37,733 nt of DNA. Origin: Nioella sediminis (GTDB lineage: Bacteria; Pseudomonadota; Alphaproteobacteria; Rhodobacterales; Rhodobacteraceae). This document shows, in pieces, positions 1,436 to 4,260 of the stretch. The notes under the pieces were generated by a model. The model saw nothing but the letters and a program-made list of their open reading frames with translations, ran no database searches and was not told the DNA's origin. Numbering within the stretch: the first letter of the stretch is position 1; the number at the start of each line of letters is the position of its first letter. The stretch lies in NCBI RefSeq assembly GCF_001879695.1, contig NZ_MNBL01000077.1, positions 1 to 37,733 of the forward strand. The letters are read 5' to 3'. Made by a program: the position numbers and the translations under genes.

Positions 1436-2188
1436 ATGAACCGACCGCTGACGCTGACACGGGGCCGATTCACGGCCCGATTTGCCCGGTCCGAGGGCGA
1501 CCTCCACGCGGCCCAGAGACTGCGATTCCGATGTTTTCGGGGCGGGCGGCAGGATCGGGATGCGCGTGATCACGACAGGTTCGACAGGCTGTGTCGCCAT
1601 GTCCTGATCGAGGACAGCGCGACCGGTCAACTGGTCTGCTGCTACAGGCTTTTGTTTCTGGAAAGCGGTGCAGAGATCGCGCGCAGCTATTCGGCCCAGT
1701 ATTACGAGCTCTCCGGTCTCGCCGGTTTCGCGCGCCCGATGGTCGAGATGGGCCGGTTCTGCATGGATCCGCTGAAGCACGATCCTGACATCCTGCGTCT
1801 GGCGTGGGGAACCATGACCGCCTTGGTGGACCGCGACGGGGTCGAGATGCTGTTCGGCTGTTCGTCCTTCCGGGGAACCGATGCCGCGCCCTATGCCGAT
1901 GCCTTCGCGCTGTTGCGGCAACGCCATGTCGCGCCGGACTGCTGGCGGCCCGGGATCAAGGCGGGCCGGGTGATCGAGTTCTCGACCCTGACCGGCACCG
2001 CCCCGGACCCGCGGCTGGCCCAATCCGGAATGCCGCCGCTGTTGCGGACCTATCTGCTGATGGGGGGCTGGGTCAGCGATCATGCGGTAATCGACCCGGA
2101 TCTCGATACGCTGCATGTGTTCACCGGGCTGGAAATCCGCGCAGTTCCGGCAGGCCGTGCCCGCTTGCTGCGCGCCCTCGCGAACTGA
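1436..2188 (+). CDS. olsB: L-ornithine N(alpha)-acyltransferase OlsB
   Basis: A 250-residue GNAT-fold acyltransferase of the OlsB type. OlsB transfers a 3-hydroxyacyl chain from acyl-ACP to ornithine, giving lyso-ornithine lipid, the first step of phosphate-free ornithine lipid synthesis at the inner membrane. Family signatures are visible: the N-terminal region with AQRLRFRCF, the VLIEDSATGQLVCCYRLL strand (about residues 56-75), ARSYSAQYYELS and the EMGRFCMDP segment (about 104-112), and the GCSSFRGTD motif (about 141-149). The length matches the family. The partner OlsA is not in the window. Before the adjacent insertion, this gene would have been convergent with the MarR gene, with about 160 bp between them. 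Confidence is high. Confidence 0.9.
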   Translation: MNRPLTLTRGRFTARFARSEGDLHAAQRLRFRCFRGGRQDRDARDHDRFDRLCRHVLIEDSATGQLVCCYRLLFLESGAEIARSYSAQYYELSGLAGFARPMVEMGRFCMDPLKHDPDILRLAWGTMTALVDRDGVEMLFGCSSFRGTDAAPYADAFALLRQRHVAPDCWRPGIKAGRVIEFSTLTGTAPDPRLAQSGMPPLLRTYLLMGGWVSDHAVIDPDLDTLHVFTGLEIRAVPAGRARLLRALAN

Positions 2189-2346
2189 CCAACGCGTGAT
2201 GCGAGAGGAGGGGCAGGGCCGCGATCCGGGCGCGGGAGGCGCAGGCCGGGCAGGCAACAGGGCAGGGGGGCGAACACGGCGCAAGCCAATTGCACACTAT
2301 GCCCCGAACCGATGCCGGGAGTGTCCTGCAAATCCCGACACAGCTC

Positions 2347-2366
2347 AGTAGATATAGCGGATCTGG
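2347..2366. repeat. att-like direct repeat, left (displaced 3' end of the MarR gene)
   Basis: The sequence AGTAGATATAGCGGATCTGG matches the right copy at 3762-3781 at 18 of 20 positions. Read on the minus strand it encodes the last MarR residues and a stop codon (TGA instead of the TAG used by the intact gene), followed by GC-rich chromosomal DNA. It is interpreted as the chromosomal half of the original attB, now separated from its gene. Confidence 0.7.
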
Positions 2367-2412
2367 GCATCTACTAATTAGACATTTTTTTCAACAATTT
2401 AATGGAAGGCTT

Positions 2413-2446
2413 AGTGCCCTGTTTAGTGCCTCCTGTAGTGCCCTGA
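2413..2446. repeat. Left arm-type repeats (AGTGCC units, 12-bp period)
   Basis: AGTGCC occurs at 2413, 2425 and 2437, exactly 12 bp apart, in the same orientation. The 22-bp stretch 2425-2446 matches 3691-3712 at the right end with one mismatch. The position, 47-80 bp inside the core repeat, fits integrase arm-binding sites. Function is inferred. Confidence 0.6.
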
Positions 2447-2545
2447 AATCTTATGCCGCGTCCCTTCTGGCTTGAAACGAGTGGCCAGCCAAGCAAAGGT
2501 GGTTTCGAAGCTTGAGCTTGCTGCTTAAGCACCGGAGGGACTGTA

Positions 2546-2974
2546 ATGCGTTTTCAGATATGGGCGGTTGTTGCTGCGCTAGGTGTTTCTGGGTGTCAGG
2601 GCGTCGGCACCAACTACGAGGCCTTGGAAACGGACGCGCCGATTTTCATGAGGCTGAATGAAAATGTTCGATTTGCTGGTCGTTCGTATCCAAGAGGCTC
2701 GACACACGAGGCGGTTCAGTTGCCCGATGGTCGATACGTTGTGGGTCTGCGCACGCAACAAACTGACTTGCTGCTGCTCCCCCTCGGTGGCGGGCTGTCG
2801 CAACAAAACACAATGGGGGTTGTGTTAGATAACCAGCTTTGCACATTCGGTCAGGCAGCACTCATTCCCGGTGGCGGCTCTCTGGGAACCCGAGTTGGAA
2901 TTTTTGAAGACGAAGCCGACAACCCAAGCCCTTGGTTTGAAAGCACGATCAGATTTTGCTTCTCTCGCGTCTGA
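2546..2974 (+). CDS. Putative lipoprotein, insertion cargo
   Basis: A 142-residue protein that I do not recognise. It begins with a lipoprotein signal (MRFQIWAVVAALGVSGC); the Cys at about residue 17 sits in a VSGC lipobox, so the mature protein should be membrane-anchored on the periplasmic or outer-membrane side. The rest is probably beta-rich, with many Gly, Leu and Val residues, and has two further Cys (in QLCTFG and RFCFSRV) that could form a disulfide. A strong ribosome binding site, GGAGGG at 2534-2539, lies six bases before the ATG. Codon use and base composition are more AT-rich than those of the flanking genes, in line with acquisition together with the insertion. No function can be assigned. 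Confidence 0.75.
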   Translation: MRFQIWAVVAALGVSGCQGVGTNYEALETDAPIFMRLNENVRFAGRSYPRGSTHEAVQLPDGRYVVGLRTQQTDLLLLPLGGGLSQQNTMGVVLDNQLCTFGQAALIPGGGSLGTRVGIFEDEADNPSPWFESTIRFCFSRV

Positions 2975-3316
2975 CCACTCAAGAAATGTGATGCGATAGA
3001 GTAGTCGCTAAACCGAACTGAGGTAGGAATTTCACCCAAGGCTAAAGGGCCCTTGTGAAGGCTATCGGGAAAATGCTGCCACGCCGCTTTCCAACAGGCC
3101 TAGGTCTCCGAATGACGAGTGGGTGACCTGAGACACATGCTAGGCGATGTCCCAAATATTTTTTTTTTGCGCTTCGCGAGGGCTACGCTGTGGGGGCAAT
3201 TTCGGGAGGGGGCAGAGGGTCCCATGTATGGAGCTGCCCTGCAGCATGTGGCCATCAACCAAGGCACTTGCCACGTTGATCCCTCTGGTCGAGCTTGGTC
3301 TCGAAGGAGTTTACAG
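2975..3316. other. Gene-free stretch inside the insertion
   Basis: No coding region with a credible start is visible. A run of ten T lies at 3159-3168 without a convincing GC-rich stem in front of it. An in-frame upstream extension of the zinc-ribbon gene to 3119 exists but lacks a ribosome binding site and resembles no known protein. The stretch may hold remains of deleted element genes. Confidence 0.5.
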
Positions 3317-3451
3317 ATGGCAAGTTGTGCAGAGTGTGGAAAGAAGCTGAACATGTTTGACCCTAGCTCTGGTGGGCTTTGTTACAGCTGCGCGCTGCAT
3401 GCAGAGCGGCGTCCAAAACGAACTACATCAGCAACGCATGATCAGGACTAG
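3317..3451 (+). CDS. 44-residue zinc-ribbon mini-protein
   Basis: A very short protein with two Cys pairs, CAEC (residues 4-7) and CYSC (about 24-27), separated by 16 residues; this is the layout of a single treble-clef or zinc-ribbon unit. The C-terminus is basic and polar. The start is set by AAGGAG at 3304-3309, seven bases before the ATG at 3317. A longer in-frame reading from 3119 is open but has no ribosome binding site. It is convergent with, and at its last bases overlaps, the integrase fragment. Such mini zinc-ribbons are frequent on phages and integrative elements, where many are of unknown role. A DNA- or protein-binding function is only inferred from the metal site. Confidence 0.65.
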   Translation: MASCAECGKKLNMFDPSSGGLCYSCALHAERRPKRTTSATHDQD

Positions 3452-3687
3452 GCATCCTTCACGGGATTTGGCTGCGCTGCGTCCAACTGGGCATATAGCG
3501 CCTCTGTGAGGCTGTGCTGCCGCCTACGGGCTTCTCGCTCATCAGTGGTGCCGGTGGACTTCCGAAGCTGTGTCTTGCCGCTCAGCGCACCCCTCAGTGC
3601 CTCCGGTACAGTGACGTAGACATACCATCGGTTGCCCTTGCTCTTGAGCCGAGACAACGTGCTTGCTGGATAGTCCGTTGTGCCCAA
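3448..3687 (-). pseudogene. Truncated tyrosine-recombinase integrase (N-terminal part only)
   Basis: A 79-residue reading frame that resembles the extreme N-terminus of phage-type integrases with the DUF6538-like start: YPASTLSRLKSKGNRWYVYV, then a P-E-A-L-R stretch, KTQLRKSTGTTDEREARRR and a helix leading towards the core-binding domain. Complete integrases of this type have some 350-400 residues. Here the frame stops at a TAG right after QPNPVKDA, and neither the SAM-like core-binding domain nor the catalytic R-H-R-Y region occurs anywhere in the insertion. The gene starts about 75 bp inside the right att-like repeat and reads inward, as integrase genes often do. It is most simply a deletion remnant. 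Whether the short product is made is unknown. Confidence 0.72.
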
Positions 3688-3690
3688 AAC

Positions 3691-3712
3691 AGTGCCCCCT
3701 GTAGTGCCCTGA
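3691..3712. repeat. Right arm-type repeats (AGTGCC units)
   Basis: AGTGCC occurs at 3691 and 3703, again 12 bp apart, within a 22-bp stretch that matches 2425-2446 with one mismatch. It lies just upstream of the integrase fragment and 50-70 bp inside the right core repeat. In the excised circle these sites and the left ones would flank the core, as in a lambda-like attP. Confidence 0.58.
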
Positions 3713-3759
3713 GGCTCACATAACCTGTTATTATATTGGGCAAAGTGGCTTGTGGGGGG

Positions 3760-4260
3760 CTAGTAAATATAGCGAATCTGGTCGGTCCAGAACCGTTCCA
3801 TACGTTTCAGCGAATGGTTCACCTGGTCGATGCCATCGGGCCCAAGCACACCTTTTTCCTGAAGCGTGTCCGCATGGCGGCGAAACAGCCCGGTCACCAC
3901 ATCGCGCACTTCGCGGCCGCGATCGGTCAGCCGCACCCGCACCGACCTGCGGTCGATCTCGCAGCGCTGGTGGTGCATATAGCCCATTTCGACCAGTTTC
4001 TTGAGGTTATAAGAGACATTCGACCCCTGATAGTAGCCGCGCGATTTCAACTCGCCCGCCGTCACCTCGTGGTCGCCGATATTGAACAGCAACAGCGCCT
4101 GAACGGCGTTGATGTCCAGCACCCCCACGCGCTCGAATTCATCCTTGATGACGTCGAGCAAGAGCCTGTGCAGCCGTTCCACCAGCGACAGGGATTCCAG
4201 ATAACCCGGCATGACACCGTGCCGGGAGGTTTCGCCAAGGGGGCTGTGCAAACTCATCAT
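3760..4260 (-). CDS. MarR-family transcriptional regulator (LdtR-like)
   Basis: A 166-residue winged-helix regulator. The segment VMPGYLESLSLVERLHRLLL (about residues 16-35), the recognition region with YYQGSNVSYNLKKLVEMGY (about 76-94) and the wing EIDRRSVRVRLTDRGREV (about 100-117) match the alphaproteobacterial MarR subgroup that includes LdtR and PetP. Such proteins bind DNA as dimers, and LdtR of Liberibacter/Sinorhizobium is linked to osmotic stress and cell-wall L,D-transpeptidase control; a similar role here is inference. No ligand pocket residue can be assigned with certainty. The last codons form the right att-like repeat of the insertion and are preserved by it. The gene is divergent from nothing close by; sdhE lies 73 bp upstream on the same strand. 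Confidence 0.87.
   Translation of the reverse strand: MMSLHSPLGETSRHGVMPGYLESLSLVERLHRLLLDVIKDEFERVGVLDINAVQALLLFNIGDHEVTAGELKSRGYYQGSNVSYNLKKLVEMGYMHHQRCEIDRRSVRVRLTDRGREVRDVVTGLFRRHADTLQEKGVLGPDGIDQVNHSLKRMERFWTDQIRYIY
3762..3781. repeat. att-like direct repeat, right (inside the MarR gene 3' end)
   Basis: AGTAAATATAGCGAATCTGG, the partner of 2347-2366. It covers the last codons of the MarR gene and restores its reading frame to the natural stop, so the host gene stays intact after integration. Confidence 0.7.

Follow-up and report, generated by a model that had tools for sequence, protein, structure and literature searches.

A 1,415-bp insertion with an integrase stub at the 3' end of a MarR-family gene in Nioella sediminis, and repeats upstream of DUF6538 integrases

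A 1,415-bp segment with 20-bp direct repeats at its borders lies between a GNAT acetyltransferase gene and a MarR-family regulator gene in Nioella sediminis. The source genome is a draft of 197 contigs, and the stretch analyzed here (37,733 bp, referred to as the window) is a 37.7-kb contig. The segment carries what looks like the beginning of an integrase gene and short repeat arrays inside both ends. Is it a small element that relies in trans on an integrase gene at another locus, or is it what a deletion left of a larger island? A sequence-only reading had left both answers standing. We compared the locus with related genomes and with other loci of the same integrase group.

An insertion with exact ends at a MarR-family gene

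The target site and its surroundings comprise the following features.

1436 to 2188, forward strand: GNAT acetyltransferase (Acetyltransf_5 by Pfam), the synteny neighbor, in the corresponding position in G003 and G002
2347 to 2366, no strand: left attachment repeat AGTAGATATAGCGGATCTGG, the displaced old host MarR 3' end, with no difference from the lone copy at the G003 and G002 empty sites
2361 to 2366 (same letters at 3776 to 3781), no strand: ATCTGG, the simplest crossover location, from the comparison of repeat positions 5 and 14
3762 to 3781, no strand: right attachment repeat AGTAAATATAGCGAATCTGG, the element-derived new MarR 3' end with stop codon TAG, from the repeat and empty-site comparison
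3760 to 4260, reverse strand: MarR-family regulator of 166 aa, the target gene (Pfam MarR_2 and MarR, both above cutoff)

Five other genomes of the genus (G001 to G005) served as the comparison set. In G003 and G002, the acetyltransferase and MarR genes are adjacent, as in the flanks of the window, and the intergenic DNA aligns to the left flank up to the repeat and then runs into the MarR gene. At these empty sites, the flanks are continuous around a single repeat of the left type. Relative to these two genomes, the segment is an insertion with exact ends. Single MarR ends were also present in G001, G004, and G089 (a genome of the same family), with the acetyltransferase relative absent from the fetched stretch, and we did not count them as clean empty sites; in G005, the MarR gene runs off the contig end. 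Relatives of the MarR protein itself were found in 113 of 147 genomes (E value of ≤1e-20).

Element DNA was matched in 1 of 394 family genomes, namely, the source genome, and in none of five close genomes in a search run without an internal positive control. The sequence-only reading had recommended comparing related genomes with and without the insertion, and had named two observations that would count against it: the same 1.4 kb in all close relatives, and a left repeat older than any insertion. The former was not observed. The latter was, in that the empty sites hold one left-type copy, but this is exactly what site-specific insertion predicts. Insertion in the source lineage is the simplest account of the empty sites; the other possible origin, precise excision in G003 as well as in G002, would still imply site-specific recombination.

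Alignment and translation confirmed that the repeats at 2347 to 2366 and 3762 to 3781 are identical at 18 of 20 positions and that both encode QIRYIY followed by a stop, the differences being synonymous. A degenerate pattern covering both copies (up to three mismatches) occurs at two places in the window (0.00 expected). The repeats had been recognized correctly, with a small correction to the assignment of the MarR ends: the left repeat is the old host end (TGA), and the right repeat is the present end of the MarR gene (TAG) and is borne by the element. Judged against the empty sites, the two differing positions (5 and 14) are host-type in the left copy and not in the right copy, and at the level of sequence, this shows the left repeat to be that of the host and the right repeat to be that of the element. 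Because both left positions are host-type and both right ones are not, the crossover is placed to the right of positions 5 and 14, most simply in ATCTGG, unless position 14 lay in the overlap and the mismatch was resolved that way. No Rfam match was obtained in the region from 2200 to 3900 (E value of ≤0.1).

The MarR 3' end was also considered as an insertion hotspot, an idea that was set aside. A QIRYIY-stop pattern, which excludes TAG stops and would miss an insertion of the window type, was found in 274 of 394 genomes; two copies occurred only in G308, on different contigs. The two G308 ends agree in most of the 10 codons before QIRYIY (last 60 letters) and, from their sequences, look like paralogues.

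Integrase stub, AGTGCC arrays, and cargo

Between the repeats, the following features were recognized.

2412 to 2447, forward strand: putative left arm array, three TAGTGCC units with a 12-bp period (pattern search; match to the right array)
2546 to 2974, forward strand: open reading frame of 142 aa with a lipoprotein-like start (by eye), orphan cargo with no informative family
3317 to 3451, forward strand: open reading frame of 44 aa with two CxxC pairs, zinc-ribbon-like by eye, hypothetical (from sequence)
3448 to 3687, reverse strand: integrase stub of 79 aa, a DUF6538 N-terminal domain with no core-binding or catalytic domain (PF20172, 51.1 bits, cutoff of 27)
3690 to 3709, forward strand: putative right arm array, two AGTGCC units with a 12-bp period, directly before the stub start (pattern search)

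DUF6538 is found at the N terminus of tyrosine integrases whose open frames span 436 to 465 residues, and the PF20172 match, above the curated cutoff, places the stub in this family. Homology between the stub and three full-length integrases stops at 3454, 3457, and 3472. In-frame similarity to the relatives extends through the stub nearly to its stop codon, as expected of a fairly recent cut. When the element alone was searched with tblastn for further integrase pieces, the next matches had E values of ≥0.25. An integrase N terminus of 79 residues without a catalytic region, as originally described, is therefore borne out by the PF20172 match and the lack of any further tblastn piece. The locus shares with autonomous tyrosine-integrase islands an insertion at a gene end, with the end restored and an empty site known, and lacks their full integrase with a catalytic domain.

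The nearest full-length relatives of the stub are 42 to 48% identical to it over the N terminus; they carry DUF6538, and their core-binding and phage-integrase matches are partly below the cutoffs. With the stub as the sole query, plasmids, phages, and viral contigs yielded no relative, and six exact peptide patterns, which would reveal close relatives only, found none in genome_contigs. A three-sequence alignment used as the query found three loci in genome_contigs and none in viral_contigs. The fold predicted from the single sequence (mean pLDDT of 70.7, a modest confidence) had no PDB match at an E value of ≤0.001, and a profile search of PDB sequences returned only a ribosomal protein (E value of 0.39). 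A 14-mer within the stub (3493 to 3506) matches the att core at 86%, which chance or a secondary core site could explain. It was set aside as a deletion hotspot, since integrase homology continues past it to about 3454.

AGTGCC units start at 2413, 2425, and 2437 on the left and at 3691 and 3703 on the right. Pairs with a 12-bp period occur in the window at 2413, 2425, and 3691 only (three matches versus 0.01 expected from shuffles). The two arrays match at 82% across 33 bp. None of 1,810 overlapping background windows scored as well against the right array as the left array does. The arrays inside both ends, their exact 12-bp period, and the 22-bp units with a single mismatch had all been described from the sequence and were recovered here. 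Directly before the stub, the right array forms a 7-bp exact repeat, and as much was attained in 16 of 2,000 shuffles; 51 bp separate this array from the right repeat. Although the pair pattern was detected in 6 of 394 family genomes, it was clustered only in the window element, and within the source genome, it was confined to this element (three places). We regard the arrays as probably integrase arm sites, which the N-terminal domain of the integrase would bind.

Triple AGTGCC arrays in IMG/VR (at least 120 stretches, 80 loci) were examined and rejected as att sites; by eye, they are mostly short coding-like repeat runs. A less repetitive case is a TAGTGCC triple with a 12-bp period on a viral contig (L131:5938-5967), about 1.5 kb from an integrase gene.

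The cargo provided few clues. The 142-aa frame matched no Pfam or NCBIfam family and one weak PHROG of unknown function (E value of 0.0016), and searches of 294 other family genomes, plasmids, phages, and IMG/VR returned no relative. The 44-aa frame gave only weak matches to PHROGs of unknown function. No transfer gene family was matched in the element (Pfam, NCBIfam, and PHROG). GC content is about 50 to 61% inside the element, about 60 to 70% in the left flank, and 53 to 65% in the right flank, so that the contrast is weak, the right flank overlapping the inside values.

Repeats upstream of other DUF6538 integrases

Six relatives outside the source genome were compared: two in G203 (G203a and G203b), one in G254, one in G317 (locus L173), and loci L174 and L175. 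A head-to-tail pair (11 to 13 bp) stands shortly before the integrase gene in all six and also at L003 of the source genome. Three of the six lie behind tRNA-Ser and one behind tRNA-Met; no tRNA gene was found for L174 and L175. From the att repeat to the pair, the gap is 52, 51, 52, and 41 bp in the four tRNA islands (41 bp in G317). Copies of the tRNA end set the island ends at about 14 kb in G203a, 13 kb in G203b, and 5.8 kb in G317; G203a has a second, poorer copy at about 19.6 kb, and no far repeat was found within 60 kb in G254. In all three islands for which the far end was found, the near motif is present there too, in the same orientation, as exact 8-mers in G203a and imperfectly in G203b and G317. 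Its score was equaled by 0 of 1,810, 7 of 1,810, and 0 of 510 overlapping background windows in G203a, G203b, and G317, respectively, and the G203b far-end motif is weak.

These four islands resemble the window element in their DUF6538 N terminus, in the 11- to 12-bp pair before the integrase gene, in a similar att gap, and, in three of four, in the far-end motif. They differ from it in lying behind tRNA genes, in their size (about 5.8 to 14 kb where both ends are known), in having full-length integrase frames (three of four), and in repeat motifs unlike those of the window. Their layout supports the proposal of candidate arm sites in both ends and, together with the empty sites, that of a tyrosine-recombinase insertion that restored the end of the MarR gene.

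Broken integrases are frequent in this group. The catalytic part is wholly or mostly missing at three of the six loci (G317, L174, and L175), with break points, in residues of the reference protein, at about 55 (L175:10004-11500), about 313 (L174:10004-11500), and about 203 to 234 (L173, from 10001). Among the 66 matches to PF20172, obtained in 35 of 71 family genomes, 21 were in frames shorter than 300 aa, a count that includes the stub and may include frames at contig ends. Behind the integrase break in L175 is a transposase-like frame (by eye). In both G203 islands (L176 to L181; about 14 and 13 kb), a gene that by eye resembles a serine recombinase faces the DUF6538 integrase; both also encode a protein with a VPLPAALPMLLAG tail, which we take to be VPLPA-CTERM, and their other cargo differs.

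We evaluated the repeat pattern at all 30 DUF6538 loci (L196 to L225) that the 66 matches yielded, each of these loci being tested for an exact repeat of at least 7 bp with a period of 11 to 13 within 130 bp before the domain. Such a repeat was present at 16 of the 30 loci, versus 0 of 30 for periods of 14 to 19 and 1 of 30 for periods of 8 to 10. Periods of 11, 12, and 13 accounted for 1, 9, and 6 loci, compared with shuffle means of 0.05, 0.35, and 0.15, respectively. In the controls, the count was 1 of 29 for DNA farther upstream, 4 of 29 for the interior of the integrase gene, and 2 of 29 before MarR genes. Some loci look related (for example, L212 and L216; L217, L218, and L220), and the independent cases number fewer than 30. 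The repeat motif differs between integrases, and because 14 of the 30 loci have no exact repeat of this kind, the hallmark is not universal; the stub has it. The repeats are candidate arm or operator sites, and DUF6538 itself may bind them. No paper containing the word DUF6538 was found in a literature search, and the listings and opening lines of abstracts that it returned contained no report of the repeat pattern or of such a MarR 3' end target.

Remnant versus mini-element

We conclude that a DUF6538-type island very probably inserted at the MarR 3' end and later lost most of its integrase, leaving a remnant that resembles a cis-mobilizable element (CIME). In this scheme, attP of the island would have recombined with a 20-bp attB at the 3' end of the MarR-family gene, the insertion supplying a synonymous replacement of the last codons and the stop. 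An internal deletion, which we infer, would later have taken out the original interior together with most of the integrase, so that attL, attR, both arms, the N-terminal stub, and about 1 kb of cargo remained; the cargo may or may not stem from the parent island. An island of small original size would now have the same appearance. No intact parent element was found in 394 family genomes or in genome_contigs. Such a remnant would be expected to stay in place unless the cell acquired an integrase that recognizes its arm and core sites.

In a review, CIMEs are described as elements that lack integration and transfer genes, keep attL and attR, and are defined as decayed ICEs or IMEs (PMC5704250). 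The window element likewise retains attL and attR at the 3' end of a target gene and has lost its integration gene, apart from the 79-aa N terminus. It differs in that no conjugation or mobilization gene links it to an ICE or IME and no tandem accretion was seen. Apart from proof of ICE or IME descent, it fits the CIME definition given there. The integrase-less microcin H47 island of Escherichia coli, called mobile, is likewise small, is bordered by direct repeats, and encodes no recombinase, and no stub or arm arrays are mentioned there, whereas the window element is known from sequence alone (PMC5426353); tmRNA-targeted islands share a tyrosine integrase near one end and flanking direct repeats but differ in that the window target is a protein-coding regulator gene and the window integrase is broken (PMC12595487).

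The main alternative, which we consider unlikely, is a nonautonomous mini-element with a complete attP that is moved in trans, its stub possibly regulating through arm binding. In its favor, the element has both arrays and both core repeats, which agree with each other, and the stub frame is whole as a domain. However, no second copy was found in the 394 family genomes or the 5 close ones. A search of the source genome for a helper, with the N-terminal part of the stub as the query and with PF20172 matches, revealed two further DUF6538 genes: L003 (C101, about 20,000) is full-length and 32% identical to the stub over the N terminus, and the AACGTGTGTGG pair before it is unlike AGTGCC; L201 (C189:11179), missed by the stub query, is a 216-aa frame without an 11- to 13-bp repeat. 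The AGTGCC pairs confined to the element argue likewise, and neither more than one copy nor a helper of the same specificity was found in the genomes examined. With no sibling copy, no close helper, and frequent broken integrases in the group, a remnant is far more likely than a mini-element; of the two answers originally offered, the deletion remnant is favored, and movement in trans is possible but unsupported. A more specific version, in which the element is a minimal satellite whose free-standing DUF6538 protein binds the complete attP and which the integrase of an invading island moves and controls in trans, appears improbable.

An assembly artifact, in which a larger element collapsed at the stub junction, is very doubtful: the genome is a draft of many contigs, but the junction lies inside one of 37.7 kb, and short frames occur at many other DUF6538 matches as well. 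It is hardly credible that the MarR 3' end was duplicated independently, or that the repeats arose by chance, with no site-specific recombination involved, since, although the repeats span only 20 bp with two differences, the empty sites hold one copy and define a clean 1,415-bp insertion, the repeats are not expected by chance in the window, and the arrays at both ends fit the plan of the relatives.

Insertion, the exchange of gene ends, and decay can be followed here at base resolution, and the target, the 3' end of a gene for a MarR-family regulator, is unusual. The element itself appears to be an unremarkable relic. Of greater use is the pattern to which it led, the repeats before DUF6538 integrases, a poorly known group with an unnamed domain. 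If the pattern holds, DUF6538 would be an arm-binding domain, and the repeats would provide a way to locate both ends of DUF6538 islands.
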